The notes below the pieces were generated by a model that made no database searches, was not told where the DNA came from, and worked only from the letters and a program-made list of their open reading frames with translations. DNA of 42,519 nt from IMG/VR virus record IMGVR_UViG_3300010379_000014, positions 1-42,519 of that record. One strand, written 5' to 3'. This stretch comes from a virus. Shown here in pieces: positions 5,467-27,935 of this stretch; the stretch's first letter is position 1, and each line of letters starts with the position of its first letter. The translations under genes and the position numbers were made by a program.

Positions 5467-7320
5467 ATGCCTTTCGCCAAAGTATCGTACGTCGCTCACG
5501 TTCCCGGCCACCACAACTCCAAGGGGGAACTTGCTGAGTGGGTCGTAAAATCCCATGAAACTGGGAAAATTCTTACCAGCTATGGCTCAGAAGAGGCCGC
5601 TAAAAAGGGGCTGCAAAACATGCACGCTCACTCCGGCTCTTTGAAAACGGCGGTGACGACCTCTGTCAATGCTCTCGACCCCTTCACCCGTGCTTACATC
5701 GAAGCGGCTCTCTGGTCGTCCACCGACGATGACGGCACGCCGCTGGATTCCAAGTATGGAGTGGAGGATTTTGCCCCCGATACCCTCAAGGCCATGATTG
5801 AGGACTGCAAGCAGTTTCAACAGCAGAACTCCCCTCTGTTCACCGACTGCCGACGCAGCAACGAGTACACCGACGATGAGATGGCTGGTCATGACTTCTG
5901 GTTGACTCGTGACGGGCACGATGCCGGTTTTTGGGACGGTGACTGGCCGACGACTGGCGACCAGCTTACAGCGGCTTCAAAGAAGTTTGGTGAAGCTGAC
6001 CTGTACATTGGTGACGATGGGTACATTTACCAATATGGTAAAGAAACTCCCGGTCCTGTTCCACCCCGTGAAGATTACAACCCCACCCAAGAGGAACTAG
6101 CTGACTTGAAAGCGATGGGAATTCAAGGTTCGAAGAAGACGGCCATCTACATCGAAGAACAGTGGGAAGACATTCTCCAGAAGAAAGGCTACGTCGTAGA
6201 TGAGAGCAAAGACTCTGACTGGAATGACACGATGTATGTCAACCCGCAGATGCCTGAAATCTCCGTGATGATTCATGAAGGCGGCGGGGATGAGTCTTAC
6301 TTTGTTGTTGAATTTAACGGGGGGCTTTTGGAGCAGGGCGAGAATCCTGATACCCTCTGGCAGACCTTGGATAAGGCGGTGAAACTCTACCGTGATTCCA
6401 TCAAGCATGAACGCGAGTTCAATGATGCTGATAAAGAAGAACTCAAGACCATGGGTGTTCTCGGTTCCAAGAATCCCCTGCTCCAGAAAAAGAAGGCACT
6501 ATTGCCAACGCCCAAGTACGATTACGAGGCTAACGGCAATGACGTAGTGCTCATCTCCCCGCAGCACGCAACCAAGTTGCTGGAGGGGAACGATGCGAGG
6601 GACTTTTGGGTTGCTCTTGACGCTCTTGAGGATGAAGACATTACAGGGGCTGAACTTCGGTTGCAACAGTTAATTCAATCCTTCATGAGCAAACAGCCCC
6701 ACGCGGTCTCTGCCAGCTACATGATTCAGGTCGAAGCCAGCACGTTTCTCAACAAGAAAGCGACCGCCTCTCCTGTATTCATCTCCAACGTTCAGTACAA
6801 GGACAATCGGATTGAAAAATTCCGCTTCACAACCAACCTCAAGAAGGCTAAGGTCTTCTCACGCATGGCAGCGGTGAGTGTTCAGCGTCAGTTAGCCGAC
6901 TTCCGCATGGGTGGAAGTTTGAAACTCGCCGATGAATCCCTTGAAGAAGTCAAGGAGGAGGACTACGGGCAGGAAGTGATTATCGACATCCACGGCGTCC
7001 CACCTGAGTTCTTCAACAAGAACGATGTCAGAAAATTTACTGAGGCGTTGTGTGACGCAATCGGGATGAAGCGCGGCCCCAACTATGTGTGGGGTGACGA
7101 CAACGAACTGGGAACCATGCACAATCCCAAGGCAGATGGAATTAGCTGTGTGCAATTTCTGTACTCCAGCAGCATTACTATGCACGCCATTGATGAACTG
7201 CAAAAAGTGTTTATCAATGTCTTCTCATGTAAGACATTCGATTCGGAGATAGTGAAGAAATTTGTCGAAGAGAAAATCGGCGGACAAATCGTAAGCTTCC
7301 ACGACTTCAAGAGGATATAA
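5467..7320 (+). CDS. Large multidomain phage protein, 617 aa
   Basis: Residues 1-55 form a small domain (PGHHNSKGELAEWVV...). Residues ~70-190 are a conserved phage domain found in many tailed phages (DPFTRAYIEAALWSS, GHDFWLTRDGHDAGFWDGDW). Two near-repeats, DLKAMGIQGSKK (~215) and ELKTMGVLGSKN (~330), each precede a further domain, so the protein looks built from duplicated modules. The last ~150 residues are a separate fold ending SFHDFKRI. Function unknown; acidic and cytoplasmic in appearance. Expression is probably controlled by the hairpin at 5421-5462. Confidence 0.65.
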   Translation: MPFAKVSYVAHVPGHHNSKGELAEWVVKSHETGKILTSYGSEEAAKKGLQNMHAHSGSLKTAVTTSVNALDPFTRAYIEAALWSSTDDDGTPLDSKYGVEDFAPDTLKAMIEDCKQFQQQNSPLFTDCRRSNEYTDDEMAGHDFWLTRDGHDAGFWDGDWPTTGDQLTAASKKFGEADLYIGDDGYIYQYGKETPGPVPPREDYNPTQEELADLKAMGIQGSKKTAIYIEEQWEDILQKKGYVVDESKDSDWNDTMYVNPQMPEISVMIHEGGGDESYFVVEFNGGLLEQGENPDTLWQTLDKAVKLYRDSIKHEREFNDADKEELKTMGVLGSKNPLLQKKKALLPTPKYDYEANGNDVVLISPQHATKLLEGNDARDFWVALDALEDEDITGAELRLQQLIQSFMSKQPHAVSASYMIQVEASTFLNKKATASPVFISNVQYKDNRIEKFRFTTNLKKAKVFSRMAAVSVQRQLADFRMGGSLKLADESLEEVKEEDYGQEVIIDIHGVPPEFFNKNDVRKFTEALCDAIGMKRGPNYVWGDDNELGTMHNPKADGISCVQFLYSSSITMHAIDELQKVFINVFSCKTFDSEIVKKFVEEKIGGQIVSFHDFKRI

Positions 7321-11182: not shown

Positions 11183-11212
11183 TGTCTAAAACCCCTGTCA
11201 GGCTGGTATACT
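11183..11212 (+). promoter_or_regulatory. Phage promoter for ligase N-terminal fragment
   Basis: TGTCTA (11183-11188), 18-bp spacer, TATACT (11207-11212). The ATG of the ligase fragment is at 11219, exactly 6 nt after the -10, so the mRNA should be leaderless. Confidence 0.65.
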
Positions 11213-11218
11213 GTCTAT

Positions 11219-11539
11219 ATGGGAACCGATAATCCGCAACTTGAAGCCAAAGTCCGTGACCTGAACGAGCAGCTTGAAAAGGCTCGTAAAGCCTACTACG
11301 TAGACGCCACCCCCATCATGACCGACGCCGCCTTTGATGTACTCGAAGGCCGTCTCCGGGGACTCATTCAGACCAGCCCATGGCTTGCCTATTTGGCGAC
11401 TTCCCTTTCTACCGTGGGCAGTGACGCGACCGGCAAAGACCGCATCAAGCACATCCGCCCGATGCTCTCGATTGAGAACCAGTACAAGAAGGAAGACGTG
11501 GTGGCGTTTTTTCTTGAACTTCAACCAAAGAAAGGCTGA
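11219..11539 (+). CDS. ligA: NAD+-dependent DNA ligase, N-terminal fragment (domain Ia)
   Basis: A 106-aa protein. EARKAYYVDATPIMTDAAFDVLEGRL corresponds to LigA domain Ia, which binds the NMN half of NAD+, and HIRPMLSIENQYKKEDVVAFF aligns with the E. coli LigA stretch just before the adenylation domain. The frame then ends (LQPKKG stop). The rest of the enzyme is in separate frames at 12814 and 14657. If active, this piece must associate with the others in trans to supply NAD+ recognition. Confidence 0.75.
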   Translation: MGTDNPQLEAKVRDLNEQLEKARKAYYVDATPIMTDAAFDVLEGRLRGLIQTSPWLAYLATSLSTVGSDATGKDRIKHIRPMLSIENQYKKEDVVAFFLELQPKKG

Positions 11540-11641
11540 ATGATGAAAGCACTCGCGTTCTTTCTCTTGTCTTTAACCTTGGGGGGTCTTCTTGAAATTC
11601 GTGCGGGAATCAACTACCGTATAAATACGAGAGGTAATTGA
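11540..11641 (+). CDS. 33-aa membrane or secreted peptide
   Basis: ATG 11540 abuts the ligase fragment stop, behind AAAGG. Hydrophobic core (LAFFLLSLTLGGLL) then a short polar tail. Support is the junction and the composition. Confidence 0.4.
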   Translation: MMKALAFFLLSLTLGGLLEIRAGINYRINTRGN

Positions 11642-11642
11642 G

Positions 11643-12008
11643 ATGGAATACAGAAAAGACGCATGGAAAAAGCCGAAACTCCTGAGCAGCTGGGAAGTTG
11701 AAGGGGTGCGCTCTAATCCGCATCATGTTGTTCAATATGGCGACGTTCCATCGGTAACTACTGCCAAGCGCCGGTCTATTTGCAGGGCTTGCGGTCAGTC
11801 GATAATCAAGGGCGAACAGCGGCTTTCTTTCTTTTGGGATTTCACGGGGTGCGGTTCGTGGACAGCCCAAGAGGTACATATTCACACTCATGATTGCACC
11901 CATGTTCTCGACGAGGAGAAACCATGCTTGAACTCGGCGAACGATATTTCGCTGATTGCAAAACTTGAACAGGTTTGCGGGATTACTTCAAACCCACCTG
12001 AGAAGTGA
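11643..12008 (+). CDS. PARP-type zinc-finger-like protein, 121 aa
   Basis: ATG 11643 follows GAGAGG. The segment CRACGQSIIKGEQRLSFFWD, then WTAQEVHIHTHDC, has the C-x2-C...H-x-C spacing and GxxR turn of PARP-like zinc fingers, which bind DNA ends or nicks in known families; here that role is only inferred. The last 26 bp overlap the end of the antisense GIY-YIG gene, so the C-terminus may have been altered by that insertion. Confidence 0.5.
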   Translation: MEYRKDAWKKPKLLSSWEVEGVRSNPHHVVQYGDVPSVTTAKRRSICRACGQSIIKGEQRLSFFWDFTGCGSWTAQEVHIHTHDCTHVLDEEKPCLNSANDISLIAKLEQVCGITSNPPEK

Positions 12009-12762
12009 TGCGGCCACAGACAAACCCGGCTGGCACTATGGCATCGGGTGAGAGTCGTTTACTAACCTGCCCGTTGTTGTACCATTTTTTGCCAATGCAA
12101 GAAACCCTCAAACGAGCCTTCGCCTGTTCCGACACACCACGTTCCTTCGCCTTAGCAGACTGGAGCATTCGACTTTCTTCTGTGTGGTGCCATCCAGTCC
12201 TGACATTACCTTGTTCGCACCGCAGTTTTTGGGCTTTGGAAATGTTTGTCCGCCCCACTGAGGACATGGGTTTATGCTTCAATCCTGTGTGAGCCGCCGA
12301 CAACTTCGCTTTAACCTCAGCCGACCGGGTTTCTCCTTTTCGCCTACGATTAGACTCGGCGATTTTCTCTTTCGATTCCTCGGTGTGCCGGAAGGTTTTC
12401 ATTCGCTCTCTGAGAATGGTTATTGCACGAGCAGATGGTTTCCGCCCAGTCATGGGAGCGAGGGGGCTGAGAGCCATGTTGTACCCGAGGTTCAAAGTAT
12501 TAAGTTTGTTGATGTACTCTTGTTCCTTGTTGCGGAGGGTGATTTCGGGGGTACTTGAAGGCAGGGTTTCAAGGATTTCGAATGCAAACGCAGCCTGACC
12601 GTATTTGTTCCAAGACGCTTGTAAATGCAGGTTGCTATGTTTTCCTTTAATGAGGTCATTTTTATGTTTTGGAAATCTCTTCTGAGTCCAGAGGGAACTC
12701 CCGATGTACAGCTTCCCGTTTACTAGGTTTCGTATCTGGTAGATGGAAATAAGTTTCAACAT
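11983..12762 (-). CDS. GIY-YIG homing endonuclease with NUMOD3-like repeats
   Basis: A 259-aa protein on the minus strand (ATG at 12762). Residues 6-23 (SIYQIRNLVNGKLYIGSS) form the GIY-YIG core. RHTEESKEKIAESNRRR and later HTEESR/SEQAKARL units are the small DNA-binding repeats (NUMOD3 type) found behind this nuclease domain. It lies antisense in the gap between ligase fragments one and two. Its start region overlaps the promoter of the middle ligase fragment on the opposite strand. Probable free-standing mobile endonuclease. Confidence 0.8.
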   Translation of the reverse strand: MLKLISIYQIRNLVNGKLYIGSSLWTQKRFPKHKNDLIKGKHSNLHLQASWNKYGQAAFAFEILETLPSSTPEITLRNKEQEYINKLNTLNLGYNMALSPLAPMTGRKPSARAITILRERMKTFRHTEESKEKIAESNRRRKGETRSAEVKAKLSAAHTGLKHKPMSSVGRTNISKAQKLRCEQGNVRTGWHHTEESRMLQSAKAKERGVSEQAKARLRVSCIGKKWYNNGQVSKRLSPDAIVPAGFVCGRITSQVGLK

Positions 12763-12765
12763 TTG

Positions 12766-12795
12766 TAGCCAAACCTTCTGTATACTTGGTATACT
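12766..12795 (+). promoter_or_regulatory. Phage promoter for ligase middle fragment
   Basis: TAGCCA (12766-12771), 18-bp spacer, TATACT (12790-12795). A direct repeat GTATACTTG (12780, 12789) gives a second -10-like copy. A separate promoter here arg­ues that the middle ligase fragment is an independent gene, not an exon. Confidence 0.65.
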
Positions 12796-12813
12796 TGAAA
12801 TAGGAGAATCAAG

Positions 12814-13731
12814 ATGGGGTCACCAGTGAGTTCCTCTACAATGAATCCTGTAGTCTGTTTATTTGAGGCCAAGCAGGATGGGATTTCGGCGGAGCTAGTT
12901 TATATAGACGGGCGGTTGAAACAGGCTGTCACTCGCGGTACAGGCACCGAGGGTGAGGACATGACCGCTCAGGTCAAAGCCCTTCGAAGCGTCCCTCAGT
13001 TTTTGGTTCATGCCCCCCTGCTTGACATGGCTTCAGAGATTCGTGTTCGCGGGGAACTGGTTATGCGCGACGGTGAACTCGACCGCATCAACGCTGAAGC
13101 CACCGCGAAGGGCTTGAAGACTTATGCCAGCACGAGAAATCTCACTGCGGGTACCATGAAACAAAAAGACCTATCGGTGGTTGCCAGCCGGGAGATTATT
13201 CTGATGCCGTGGGATATGTACTCCCCAACTGAGGACAGCAACCTACCAGACTCTGCCTACGACCGGATGAGGCTTTTGGAGTCCGTGGGATTTTCTGAGT
13301 ACAAAGGGGTCAAGGTGGATAAGGCGTCTGAGGTCATTCCAGCGATTGACACTATCCTCGCTCTCAATGCCAAGTCCAACATCCGGGCAGACGGCGTAGT
13401 TATCAAGGTGGACAGTCACAAGCTTCGCAAGGAACTCGGCGTGGCGTCGAAGTTCACCAACTGGATGACTTGCTTCAAGCCGCAGTCGTCAAAATCCACC
13501 ACGCACTTACGTGAAGTCGTGTGGCAGGTCGGTCGGTCGGGGAATGTCACCCCTGTTGGGATTGTGGACCCTGTTGTATTAGCTGGGGCGACGGTCACTC
13601 GCGTTACATTGAACAATGAGACGTGGATTGAGACTATGGGATTGCGTTTGGGTTGTACTGTGGAGATTTGCCGGAGCGGGGAGGTAATTCCGTTAATAAC
13701 AAAAGTTTACCCCGAGCCCGACGAACTATGA
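12814..13731 (+). CDS. ligA: NAD+-dependent DNA ligase, adenylation and OB-fold fragment
   Basis: A 305-aa protein from ATG 12814 behind TAGGAG; ATG 12841 is an alternative. FEAKQDG (Lys 20) is nucleotidyltransferase motif I, the residue that carries AMP. RVRGELVM, ADGVVIKVDS and CFKPQ match motifs III, IV and V. WQVGRSGNVTPVG to CRSGEVIPLI is the OB fold. The first ~11 residues have no LigA counterpart. The stop falls exactly between the OB fold and the zinc finger. The last 98 bp overlap the antisense endonuclease gene. Confidence 0.8.
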   Translation: MGSPVSSSTMNPVVCLFEAKQDGISAELVYIDGRLKQAVTRGTGTEGEDMTAQVKALRSVPQFLVHAPLLDMASEIRVRGELVMRDGELDRINAEATAKGLKTYASTRNLTAGTMKQKDLSVVASREIILMPWDMYSPTEDSNLPDSAYDRMRLLESVGFSEYKGVKVDKASEVIPAIDTILALNAKSNIRADGVVIKVDSHKLRKELGVASKFTNWMTCFKPQSSKSTTHLREVVWQVGRSGNVTPVGIVDPVVLAGATVTRVTLNNETWIETMGLRLGCTVEICRSGEVIPLITKVYPEPDEL

Positions 13732-14605
13732 AGTTCATTTGGTACCCCGCTGCTCGACAGGCATGGTACTTAGCCAGATTTCTGGTCTTCTCCAGTGTGA
13801 ACGTATAGGTGCTTTTAACCTCGATAATCCACCTGAGCCGAGGGACAAAGAAGTCAGGGATGTATTTGGAGGGGTTACCATTCTCATTCGTGTAGGTGAA
13901 TGAGGGGAACTTGGAAAGCGAGAAATCAAAGTCAGATTCTTGTAACCCTGTACGAAGAAGTTCATCCAGTATGTATGGCTCGTACCCTGACAGAAACACA
14001 GTTTCACCGGAGGGTAATTGAAACTCTCGACGTTGAAGTCCATGTTTGAGCGCCTTGTAAGCGATGCCCCGGTTTTGCATGGGGTGGGGGGCTCCATACT
14101 TAACCAAGTTCGTCTGTCGTGCCTTGCTCTGCAACGCTGGACTCTTTGTTGGATTGGTTACTCCAAAGTTCTTCTTACAAGTGTTGACTTTCTTCTGTTT
14201 TATTTCCTGATTGCCAGAAGGGTTCTCCACGCCATAGCGTTTAAGGTTGGTGGTTTTAATCCTCGCTTTAACAGAGTTAACAGAGAAGGGGTTGGCAACC
14301 CCGTAACGTCCAATCACGGTACCGACAGCCTTAGTTCGTGTCTCAGGGTTCTCAAAAGGGGTTGCGTACCCAGTTTTCTCTAGGCTCTTCTTCTGAAGAC
14401 TTTGTTGGTATTCAGGGTTTTTCATTAACAGGTTTTGCGGTCTCCTTGCAAGCACTATTGGGCATCGAGAAGAGTGGGATTCACAACACAAATTCCCACT
14501 CTTCATTTGAAACTTGGCACTTTGCCCACAACCATAACCACACAAACCTACACCCTCATACGGTACTGGTTTACTAACTTTCCAGCTTCTACCCTTGGTT
14601 GGCAT
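13634..14605 (-). CDS. PD-(D/E)XK-like homing endonuclease with YGV-NP repeats
   Basis: A 323-aa protein on the minus strand, with an N-terminal Cys cluster (LCGYGCGQ...CCESH). About five copies of a ~30-residue unit with core RYGVANP, RYGVENP, NFGVTNP and KYGAPHP follow, a pattern of modular DNA-binding segments in phage mobile endonucleases. The C-terminal YIPDFFVPRLRWIIEVKS fits the PD...(D/E)xK nuclease motif (Vsr/EDxHD-like relatives are known among phage homing enzymes). It occupies the second ligase gap, and its 3' end covers the end of the middle ligase fragment. Confidence 0.7.
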   Translation of the reverse strand: MPTKGRSWKVSKPVPYEGVGLCGYGCGQSAKFQMKSGNLCCESHSSRCPIVLARRPQNLLMKNPEYQQSLQKKSLEKTGYATPFENPETRTKAVGTVIGRYGVANPFSVNSVKARIKTTNLKRYGVENPSGNQEIKQKKVNTCKKNFGVTNPTKSPALQSKARQTNLVKYGAPHPMQNRGIAYKALKHGLQRREFQLPSGETVFLSGYEPYILDELLRTGLQESDFDFSLSKFPSFTYTNENGNPSKYIPDFFVPRLRWIIEVKSTYTFTLEKTRNLAKYHACRAAGYQMNFIVRRARGKLLLLTELPPRSGKSPQYNPNAIP

Positions 14606-14656
14606 AAAACGTCTCCTTACCCAAGGATTTGAAAGTTGAGTTTTTAAGGATTACCG

Positions 14657-15619
14657 ATGCTGGCACCGATTGTTCCACCCACAGAATGCCCCGAATGTAC
14701 CTCCACCCTTGTTGTGTGGACAGACAAGACCAGCAGCATCACGACCCGCTTCTGCGAGAACATTGAATGCCCCGGTCGCGTCCGTGGAACGCTGAGCTAC
14801 ATCGGTGGTCGCGACATCCTCGAAATCGACGGTCTGGCAGATGACATGGCATCCAAGCTGGAGAAGAACGGCTATGCCCGGAACCTCGGCGAGTTGTTTG
14901 AGTTCCAAGTGGAAGCCCTCGAAAACATCCGCCTGTTGAAGGCGAAGTACGGCGAAGAGCAGGGCGAAGACCAATTCACGCTCCGCATGGCGAAGCAGGG
15001 ATTCAGCGTTATCATCCTGCGTATGCTCAAGTCACTGGAGACCGCGAAGACTGCGGGATGGGACCGTTGGATTTCAGCCCTCGGTATTCCGTTCGTAGGC
15101 CGCACATTGGGCAAGCTGCTGGCAAAGGAACTCAAGCTGGAAGCCGACGATATGCCGAACCTCTGCACGAAGCTGGAAGCGGCTGCAAATCGCAGCATTG
15201 ACGGTTTGGGCGATGTCAAGAGTGACATCCTCCGCAAGTGGTCGCTCGACCCGGTGAATCGTGACATGTGCATTGCTCTGTTCAACTCTGGCGTTCGCCC
15301 CAAGGCCACTGTGACGAAGGTCGCAGACGGTGTGGGTGAACCCTTAAAGGGGACATCTTTCTGCATAACCGGAACCTTTGATGAAGACCGGGAAGTGCTG
15401 ACACAGAAGTTAGAGAGTCTCGGTGCTGTAGCCAAGTCAGGGGTATCAAAGAATTGCACCTTGTTAATTTGTGGCAGTGATTGTGGAAAATCAAAGCTAC
15501 AAAAAGCTGAGAGTTTGAGTATCAGTGTAGTAAAGGAGGACTGGCTAGACCAGACCTTTACTCAGTATGGTATCCCATTCAAGCGCAACTCAACCGGATT
15601 CACCGTCGAAGAAGTCTAA
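14657..15619 (+). CDS. ligA: NAD+-dependent DNA ligase, zinc finger-HhH-BRCT fragment
   Basis: A 320-aa protein with ATG 14657 behind AAGGA, so it is separately translated. CPEC...CENIECPG (Cys 11, 14, 33, 38) is the LigA Cys4 zinc finger. RDILEIDGLADDMASKLEK and ALGIPFVGRTLGKLL belong to the helix-hairpin-helix region that grips nicked DNA. Residues ~227-300 (LKGTSFCITGTF...ESLGAVAKSGVSK...VVKEDW) are the BRCT domain. All three pieces together cover a complete LigA, about 730 residues versus about 670 in E. coli. Confidence 0.8.
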   Translation: MLAPIVPPTECPECTSTLVVWTDKTSSITTRFCENIECPGRVRGTLSYIGGRDILEIDGLADDMASKLEKNGYARNLGELFEFQVEALENIRLLKAKYGEEQGEDQFTLRMAKQGFSVIILRMLKSLETAKTAGWDRWISALGIPFVGRTLGKLLAKELKLEADDMPNLCTKLEAAANRSIDGLGDVKSDILRKWSLDPVNRDMCIALFNSGVRPKATVTKVADGVGEPLKGTSFCITGTFDEDREVLTQKLESLGAVAKSGVSKNCTLLICGSDCGKSKLQKAESLSISVVKEDWLDQTFTQYGIPFKRNSTGFTVEEV

Positions 15620-16358
15620 TCAACCACTACCTTTCCAGAAATTCGGGAGATTGACTCTTCTTGAAAGAAAACGAGAACACGGTCGCACCTATTGGAAGTG
15701 TCAATGTGATTGTGGGGCCGAAGCGTCTGTGGTTGAAGACGCCATTAAACGGGAGCTAACTCGTAGTTGTGGTTGCCTTCGCAGGGAAGTAACTTCTCGT
15801 ATCAAGAGCACGGATTTGACCGGGAAGAGGTTTGGAAGATTGCTGGTTGTATCTCGCTCTTCACAGAAGAGAAAGAGCCGGTTCATTGTCTGGAAGTGCC
15901 TGTGCGATTGTGGTAAGACTACCTATGTGGTCACCAACAATTTAACCAGTGGAAACGGGAACACACGTAGTTGTGGTTGCCTTCACAGTGAATCGGTGAA
16001 ACGACCTCGGTTGGATTTAAGGAAGCGCCCCTTTGAATGGCTATACAGGGTTTTTCTCAAGAGTGCAAGGCGGGACGAACGAGAATGTGACCTAACCTAT
16101 GCCGAGTTTGTGCTGTTCACAAAAGTCTCGGAGTGCTTCTATTGTGCAAGACCCATCTCTTGGATGGAGTTTACTCCATCTAGTACAGCGGCGAAGAAGG
16201 GTGGGGCATACAATCTTGACCGGATGGATGCTTCAAAAGGGTACATTAAGGGTAACGTTGTGGTTTGTTGCCCTCGCTGCAACTGGGGTAAGAGCGACCG
16301 TTTTTCGTTTAAGGAATGGGTCGTTATGACAAGGGCACTACGCGAGTTGGAGGTCTAG
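15567..16358 (+). CDS. HNH homing endonuclease with tandem CDCG...SCGC DNA-binding units
   Basis: Up to 263 aa; ATG 15567 lies inside the ligase gene and the true start may be closer to 15640. Two copies of a ~55-residue unit (FGRLTLLERKREHGRTYWKC, then FGRLLVVSRSS...VWKCLCDCG), each closing with RSCGCL, are the AP2-like DNA-binding modules of phage HNH genes. The HNH core is CFYCARP, NLDRMDASKGYIKGNVVVCC and CNWGKSD at residues ~190-245. Inserted at the 3' end of the last ligase fragment. Confidence 0.8.
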   Translation: MVSHSSATQPDSPSKKSNQPLPFQKFGRLTLLERKREHGRTYWKCQCDCGAEASVVEDAIKRELTRSCGCLRREVTSRIKSTDLTGKRFGRLLVVSRSSQKRKSRFIVWKCLCDCGKTTYVVTNNLTSGNGNTRSCGCLHSESVKRPRLDLRKRPFEWLYRVFLKSARRDERECDLTYAEFVLFTKVSECFYCARPISWMEFTPSSTAAKKGGAYNLDRMDASKGYIKGNVVVCCPRCNWGKSDRFSFKEWVVMTRALRELEV

Positions 16359-17113: not shown

Positions 17114-17385
17114 ATCGAGTTCAGCTTGTATGTACCAATCACGGGCACTATGTCAGCGGTGAAGGCGTTCGTGGCATCGAGATAGTTGCTCGTCTCTACG
17201 ATAAGAGGGGGTTATACTTCGAGGGTAAAGGCAGCACTGATGCCGAGGCAATTGGTTCTCTCATTTGCCACTGTCCAGAAAAGTTCAATGCACGGTTCGA
17301 CATTCGAGCCGAATTCGAGGAATCCGATGGCAACGTGGAAAGTAGTAGCAGACAAGATTCAGTTGTTCCCACACCCAACCTCTGA
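17110..17385 (+). CDS. Hypothetical protein, 91 aa
   Basis: Begins in an ATGA overlap. LVCTNHGHYVSGEGVRG and SLICHCPEKF give scattered Cys/His that may bind metal. The last ~59 bp overlap the RNA ligase start in another frame, so its C-terminal tail is probably not conserved. Function unknown. Confidence 0.5.
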   Translation: MNRVQLVCTNHGHYVSGEGVRGIEIVARLYDKRGLYFEGKGSTDAEAIGSLICHCPEKFNARFDIRAEFEESDGNVESSSRQDSVVPTPNL

Positions 17386-18418
17386 CCGGCTGCGTATCGG
17401 CAAGGTCGGGAAGTTTCAGGTTGTGGTGAACACAGACAACCCGTGTGTAGATGGCGACGTTGTTGTGTTCGCCCCGGAGCGTTCAGTCCTACCCGAAGAG
17501 ATTCGTGGTGAGTACGTCAACACGGTTACGGGAGCCTCGTACCTCCAAGGGGACAATCACGACCGTGTAGGTGCCATCAGACTCCGTGGTGAGCTATCTG
17601 AGGGGGCAACCTTGCCGCTCGATTGGGTCCGCCGCAAGCTGGCCTCCGTGGTCATTCCCGGAGCAGAAACGAGAGACTTTATCCCCTTGGGTGTTGACCT
17701 GTCGGAGTACCTTGGCATCACCAAGTACATCCCACCGATTCCCGATGAGTTGGTTGGCAAAGTCACGCACATGGACGAGACTGCATTCGAGAACCGCTTC
17801 GTGCGGCATGACGTGGAATTGTTCCACATGTTCAAGGATGAATTCACCGAGGGTGAACTGGTTGACTTAACCGAAAAGGTCCACGGGTCTCAGGTGAATG
17901 TGATGCGGAGCGAGGGTGGGGTTGTTACCCTCACCAGCAAGTATCTCGGTCACGATGGGTTTGTCATTGACGAAGACTACGCCAACAAGTATTGGCAAGC
18001 AGTTCGCAACTCAGGATTACTCGACCGGCTGCGTAGCGACACGTACGCAGGGAAATCTGTTCAGGTGATAGCCGAAGCCATCCCATTCCACAAGGGCTTC
18101 TCCTACGGCTGCACAGAGCCCACGTTGAGGGTGTTCAAGTTGGTCATTGATGGCGAGGTTATCACGTTAGACCAAGTGGGCTATAGCCAAACCTACTTCC
18201 CTGACCTGTGGGTTCCCATCATCGCTCGTATGCCGTTTAACCCGGCTGTGTTCCACGTTTACGCCGATGGAAAAGAACAGGTGAGCGGCAAGGAAATCCA
18301 CATCCGCGAGGGTGTGGTTATCACGCCGGTCACTCCGCGTCTCGATTCTGAGGGGCACGGGCTGGCTATCAAATACCTCAACTCAAAGTTCAAGGGTGCG
18401 CCCACGGATTTCGCATGA
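17327..18418 (+). CDS. RNA ligase, DRB0094/Rnl5 type
   Basis: A 363-aa protein with ATG 17327 behind GAGG (17317-17320). Residues 1-110 form an N-terminal OB-like domain (HPTSDRLRIGKVGKFQVVV...AIRLRGELSEGATLP) typical of the DRB0094/Deinococcus RNA ligase family. The nucleotidyltransferase domain has motif I EKVHGSQ (Lys 184, AMP carrier), motif III-like LRVFKLVI (~267), motif IV REGVVI (328-333) and motif V LAIKY (Lys 349). It seals 3'-OH/5'-phosphate RNA nicks in known relatives. Next to a tRNA array, repair of cleaved tRNAs is a reasonable inference. The stop overlaps the next start. Confidence 0.8.
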   Translation: MATWKVVADKIQLFPHPTSDRLRIGKVGKFQVVVNTDNPCVDGDVVVFAPERSVLPEEIRGEYVNTVTGASYLQGDNHDRVGAIRLRGELSEGATLPLDWVRRKLASVVIPGAETRDFIPLGVDLSEYLGITKYIPPIPDELVGKVTHMDETAFENRFVRHDVELFHMFKDEFTEGELVDLTEKVHGSQVNVMRSEGGVVTLTSKYLGHDGFVIDEDYANKYWQAVRNSGLLDRLRSDTYAGKSVQVIAEAIPFHKGFSYGCTEPTLRVFKLVIDGEVITLDQVGYSQTYFPDLWVPIIARMPFNPAVFHVYADGKEQVSGKEIHIREGVVITPVTPRLDSEGHGLAIKYLNSKFKGAPTDFA

Positions 18419-27905: not shown

Positions 27906-27935
27906 TAGCCAAAACCGGTAGACCCTTGGTATACT
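27906..27935 (+). promoter_or_regulatory. Phage promoter, type A
   Basis: TAGCCA (27906-27911), 18-bp spacer, TATACT (27930-27935); the closest match to the consensus. Confidence 0.7.

Follow-up and report, generated by a model that had tools for sequence, protein, structure and literature searches.

The window, that is, the whole 42,519-nucleotide stretch of the IMG/VR virus record IMGVR_UViG_3300010379_000014 analyzed here, comes from a soil-type phage and contains three separate ORFs on the plus strand, at positions 11219–11539 (piece 1), 12814–13731 (piece 2), and 14657–15619 (piece 3), that together make up a complete NAD+-dependent DNA ligase (LigA). Searches with NCBIfam and Pfam models showed that the Ia, adenylation, OB, zinc finger, HhH, and BRCT domains are all covered, and the LigA profile NF005932 is tiled without overlap by pieces 1, 2, and 3 (positions 2–91, 103–387, and 395–662 of 664, respectively). 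This tiling, together with the retention of the key residues, bears out the proposal of an initial annotation that LigA is completely encoded at the locus as three pieces, each translated separately. An RNA ligase family protein (Pfam PF09414, PHA02142 OB fold) is encoded shortly downstream of the pieces (17186–18418, plus strand), and 19 tRNA genes on the plus strand between 20596 and 42261 are consistent with a large phage.

Piece 1, a protein of 106 residues, corresponds to domain Ia followed by ~35 residues from the start of the adenylation domain. It matches LigA models of NCBIfam (5e-12) and ligases of PHROG (2e-14) and gave no Pfam match by itself; its counterpart in the related viral contig L005 matches Pfam Nlig-Ia at 2e-10. 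When the predicted fold of piece 1 was compared with solved NAD+ ligases, it matched domain Ia with a probability of ~1.0 and with weak E-values, as is expected for a short helical domain; ~50 columns were aligned with the Ia structures, and the rmsd was ~1 Å in several of them. The helical Ia core is modeled confidently, and the pLDDT falls below 50 at residues 67–87, which fits a tail that might be disordered until it docks on piece 2. The NMN-site residues YY..D...D (Y-Y and F-D) are kept in the alignment and are the same as those of Mycobacterium tuberculosis LigA, F standing where Escherichia coli LigA has Y35. Piece 2 (305 residues) comprises the adenylation domain from just before the KxDG motif, here EAKQDG, and the OB fold (PF01653, 5e-45; PF03120, 1e-25). 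Its active-site residues K/D/G, E, R, D, and K align to those of E. coli LigA, and the loss of catalytic residues that the initial annotation had named as an argument against its proposal was not seen. Piece 3 (320 residues; NCBIfam LigA, 1e-42; BRCT, 2e-14) consists of the zinc finger, HhH, and BRCT domains, and its four Cys residues are invariant in the alignment.

The ribosome-binding sites that had been assigned to pieces 2 and 3 are recognizable as the Shine-Dalgarno-like sequences aggag and aagga, respectively, and the promoters assigned to pieces 1 and 2 coincide with a bipartite motif, CYAAANCC-N10-TGGTATACT, which is a predicted promoter and not a mapped one. The motif lies before piece 1 without mismatches (11186–11212, plus strand) and before piece 2 with one mismatch (12769–12795, plus strand), and with up to one mismatch it occurs at four sites in the window and at none in 30 shuffles. 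The remaining two sites are at 27909 and 28503 on the plus strand. The element GGTATACT is also found 6 nt upstream of the piece 1 ATG in L002, a contig described below. With no ribosome-binding site and an ATG that begins 7 nt past TATACT, piece 1 is probably leaderless; the ATGs at 11219 and 28536 both lie within 6–7 nt of the motif, which suggests leaderless messages. Piece 3 is preceded only by a weak promoter candidate (14548, two mismatches), and its expression may depend on read-through from piece 2.

The initial annotation placed both cuts exactly at domain borders, which holds for cut 2, located between the OB and zinc finger domains, but not for cut 1, which interrupts the adenylation domain ~35 residues from its start, immediately ahead of the strand in which the catalytic lysine of KxDG is located. 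The Pfam adenylation domain of intact relatives begins at residue 67–78, directly after Ia, and covers profile positions 6 to 249, whereas piece 2, like the second piece of L005, starts at position 39–40 of the 253-position PF01653 profile. Alignment with the intact relatives places cut 1 in a short loop that leads from a helix ending in "...VVAFF" to the strand E-[AP]-K-x-D-G, and each of the three phages with this cut has it within the nucleotidyltransferase domain.

The gaps between the pieces contain antisense endonuclease genes of two different folds, as had been noticed initially. Gap 1 encodes a GIY-YIG + NUMOD3 homing-type endonuclease (11983–12762, minus strand; Pfam, 3e-7; PHROG homing endonuclease, 2e-26; NCBIfam grpIintron_endo, 2e-22) with an intact GIY-YIG catalytic motif, and also a 121-residue ORF (11643–12008, plus strand) that was assigned to no family, with no match in Pfam or PHROG and none in L001 or L002. 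An antisense GIY-YIG gene whose start adjoins that of piece 2 is present at all three cut-1 loci (the window, L002, and L005), the genes of the other two loci being 66% and 36% identical to that of the window. These genes and the GIY-YIG gene of L011 form a supported group (96% SH-aLRT), in which the L005 gene is closest to the L011 copy. L011 is a short contig from which piece 3 is missing; its copy of this lineage lies antisense just upstream of ligA (5943–6587, minus strand), which is uncut there. A scan of viral contigs for GIY-YIG proteins returned a broad family, and among the matches listed L011 was the only further copy adjoining ligA.

Gap 2 is occupied by a gene for a DUF7487 endonuclease (13634–14605, minus strand; Pfam DUF7487, 2e-52; PHROG homing endonuclease, 1e-17), the last 98 bp of which are antisense to the end of piece 2. 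The protein is composed of helical repeats and a PD-(D/E)XK-type nuclease in which PD...EVK is invariant. A fold search with its low-confidence model (pLDDT 68) gave weak matches only, including the PD-(D/E)XK nucleases Hjc and RecE and the Vsr endonuclease, and a scan for DUF7487 added nothing beyond L010. An antisense DUF7487 gene, with its 3′ end overlapping the end of piece 2 by ~80–100 bp, exists at three cut-2 loci (the window, L010, and L036), and L010 and L036 each have a second copy directly after piece 3. The gap-2 copies share 42–49% identity and the copies after piece 3 share 46%, compared with 32–35% between the two positions within a genome; in the tree, the pair after piece 3 is supported at 93/99 and the gap-2 trio, more modestly, at 78/81. 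The copies thus tend to group by insertion position rather than by genome, which is the pattern that allelic, site-specific homing would leave, and DUF7487 is probably a family of homing endonucleases. The DUF7487 proteins of L010 and L036 show helical YG-x-NP repeats and the PD...EVK nuclease, with several copies per phage. A third endonuclease type at ligA is represented by an HNH-type ORF (15567–16358, plus strand; PHROG HNH endonuclease, 4e-35) that begins inside piece 3 and overlaps its end by 53 bp. For the sites concerned, the scans and profile searches recovered both intact, insert-free homologs and insert-bearing ones.

Relatives of the ligase were gathered by scans of viral contigs and six-frame profile searches, and no direct DNA relatives of the window were found in the phage collection. 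In the close viral clade, ligA is intact in L006/7, L008/9, L016, L040, L043, L046, L047, L073/75, and L084–87; it has cut 1 without cut 2 in L002 and L005 and cut 2 without cut 1 in L010, L036, L080, L198, and the Tunturiibacter phage Tunturi_5 (L001). Both cuts are present in the window alone. The search for shared breakpoints that the initial annotation had suggested reveals a natural series of states among the relatives: intact, cut 1, cut 2, and both. No second three-part LigA was found among ~65 viral contigs or 80 cellular loci, in accordance with the earlier remark that such an arrangement is unusual, and all of the 79 cellular LigA loci untouched by a contig end are single ORFs. Cut 1 was not seen among distant viral ligases or cellular genomes, and cut 2 recurs among the more distant viral ligases of L012–14 and T5. 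The distant jumbo-phage LigA of L012 and L013 (8954–10204 in both) is split at the OB/zinc finger border, with a same-strand glycosyltransferase-like ORF. On a tree of 28 adenylation + OB sequences, in which the window and L002 are sisters (support 100/99), cut 1 requires two changes and cut 2 requires six, although such counts cannot separate gains from losses. A viral scan for stand-alone Ia with the Ia alignment added one contig, L198, which is unbroken at cut 1, and a viral fold search for Ia returned full-length ligases and two short candidates, a 75-residue "DNA ligase" of ctDyb2 and a weak match of 104 residues in Enterococcus phage iF6. For the second of these, no LigA part is annotated in iF6 at 12–156 kb. 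T5-like records in which an additional "hypothetical protein" lay under the match proved to be two-part ligases of the ordinary kind that have a small ORF overlapping them. The stand-alone piece 1 of L002 (3126–3518) has a 31-residue insertion relative to that of the window.

Piece 2 is a mosaic in its 3′ part. DNA identity between the window and L002 is ~70–86% up to about codon 240 of piece 2 and then falls to 54%, whereas that between the window and L005 rises from ~50% to 83% after the same point. A maximum chi-square analysis of 311 informative sites located the switch at 13534–13536 (chi-square of 70.5; none of 2000 permutations as high, p = 0.0005), across which the share of L005-like sites increases from 17% to 71%, and the tract of ~200 bp (13535–13731, plus strand), which resembles L005 instead of L002, ends at cut 2. 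Such a tract is expected if the second endonuclease moved in along with flanking DNA, and co-conversion tracts have been described for free-standing homing endonucleases (PMC2988022). The putative tract fits co-conversion, in which cleavage would have been made by the endonuclease. Because the DUF7487 insert is missing from L005 itself, it would have come from an insert-bearing relative of that phage.

Several other explanations of the three pieces were considered. The ligase might be decaying, its gene having been disrupted and its work being done by the ligase of the host. The dN/dS values against L002 are 0.34, 0.09, and 0.20 for pieces 1, 2, and 3, respectively; they are rough because dS is near saturation, and only their direction, which is that of constraint, is safe. 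All pieces are under purifying selection, with piece 1 the least constrained. Decay could be read from the high value of piece 1, from the F at the E. coli Y35 position, and from the end of piece 3, which diverges from that of L002, but the low value of piece 2, the absence of stops, the retained key residues, and the conserved start signals argue against it, and the same Y-Y and F variants are found in M. tuberculosis LigA; we consider decay unlikely. Searches of the contigs of the window, L002, L005, L036, and L080, which are possibly incomplete, revealed neither a second NAD+ ligase nor an ATP-dependent one, and L010 gave one ATP-ligase-type match. It is also conceivable that each gap represents a self-splicing intron containing ORFs in antisense, so that the mRNA is joined to encode one chain. 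Antisense ORFs are possible within introns, and the model matched by the GIY-YIG protein is the "group I intron endonuclease" of NCBIfam. Rfam, however, gave no intron match between 10500 and 16800 up to E = 5, nor any in the whole window; the 0.7-kb gap of L005 and the 1-kb gap of L010 correspond almost exactly to the endonuclease ORF, so that a ribozyme would not fit; the gene content of gap 1 differs between the window and L002; and stops, ribosome-binding sites, and ATGs are found at the ends of the pieces. Split inteins were rejected because the end of piece 1 and the starts of pieces 2 and 3 lie within ~20 residues of LigA homology, where intein halves have no room. From these sequence features, introns and split inteins both seem unlikely, and splicing of the mRNA deserves very little credence. 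An artefact of assembly, which might be suspected in a metagenome-derived virus record, is more improbable still because each type of junction recurs on independent contigs (L002, L005, L010, and L036).

We consider it quite likely that the locus specifies one NAD+ ligase in the form of three polypeptides that reassemble noncovalently, and that its gene was broken twice at the sites of antisense endonucleases. Together they probably form a functional enzyme. Piece 1 would supply the NMN-binding domain Ia and the N-terminal segment of the nucleotidyltransferase fold; it would load NAD+, while its flexible tail would dock on piece 2 to complete the catalytic fold. Piece 2 would supply the catalytic lysine together with the OB fold, and piece 3, through its zinc finger, HhH, and BRCT domains, would act as the clamp on DNA. 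Subdomain 1a is required for NAD+ binding and adenylation and is dispensable once the enzyme is adenylated (PMC5052709), and the zinc finger and HhH domains bridge and close the ligase clamp (PMC8123306). As for the order of events, the first break, common to L002, would be cut 1, made along with the free-standing antisense GIY-YIG homing endonuclease, and the later one would be cut 2, for which the antisense DUF7487 PD-(D/E)XK-type endonuclease would have been brought in, along with adjoining ligA DNA, from a donor resembling L005. The endonucleases may well have caused the breaks, but it is possible, if somewhat doubtful, that the breaks arose by other routes, such as insertion of unrelated genes or rearrangement at tolerant linkers, and that the endonucleases settled in the gaps later, with the same outcome for the protein. 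Cut 2 also exists without a resident endonuclease, being filled by unrelated ORFs in L080 and L198 and by the glycosyltransferase-like ORF in L012–14, associated with promoters only in T5, and present as separated genes in Tunturi_5, so that at this site the endonuclease may have settled afterwards. The six tree changes for cut 2 and the sister GIY-YIG gene of L011, which immediately precedes a ligA with no break at cut 1, point in the same direction, and the same doubt has been voiced for gene 43 of Aeromonas phage 25 (PMC2988022). On the other hand, every known cut 1 is accompanied by a GIY-YIG gene, these genes sharing their orientation and belonging to a single supported lineage, the gaps of L005 and L010 contain nothing but the endonuclease, and the recombination tract ends at cut 2. 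A more speculative and rather improbable idea, which the position of cut 1 inside the nucleotidyltransferase fold brings to mind, is that piece 1 is an exchangeable NAD+-loading subunit with a tail that completes the catalytic domain, and that its separate and probably leaderless expression would enable the phage to control ligase adenylation apart from DNA binding and sealing.

Parts of this picture are already known, namely, two-part LigA in T5 and the splitting of phage genes by homing endonucleases; the genes of large phages are often fragmented, as in the Jug phages. The two-part NAD+ ligase that the initial annotation mentioned is indeed annotated as ligA/ligB in T5 (AY543070; PHROG pair phrog_3359/phrog_3498), and like the ligase of the window it consists of separately translated parts divided at the OB/zinc finger border, with promoters annotated between them, but it has neither the cut in the adenylation domain nor an endonuclease in the gap. 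The related ligase of Tunturi_5 (gp116/gp108, PP885688; 45% in piece 2) is likewise split at cut 2, but its parts are 3.2 kb apart with unrelated genes between them, and cut 1 is absent. L002 (IMGVR_UViG_3300037278_000114) has the sister ligase (79% in piece 2) and cut 1 with the same antisense GIY-YIG gene, whereas its pieces 2 and 3 are fused as one ORF of 624 residues. Essential genes of DNA metabolism are split at a free-standing homing endonuclease in Aeh1 (nrdA, mobE), T4 (gene 39/60, mobA), and Aeromonas phage 25 (gene 43, seg), and the split Aeh1 NrdA and phage 25 gp43 are functional, which, together with T4 gp39/60, provides precedents of functional split enzymes (PMC2988022). Those cases concern other enzymes with one break per gene (PMC2988022), in contrast to the two breaks of the window and its endonucleases of two folds, both antisense. 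As far as the collections searched show, the three-part NAD+ ligase, the cut in its catalytic domain, the living intermediates, and the association of a single gene with endonucleases of two folds, each at its own site, are new. The locus and its relatives would provide a widely used enzyme that is already divided within its catalytic fold and, with all of the intermediates at hand, a natural experiment on how mobile endonucleases may convert an essential enzyme of one chain into one of several subunits.
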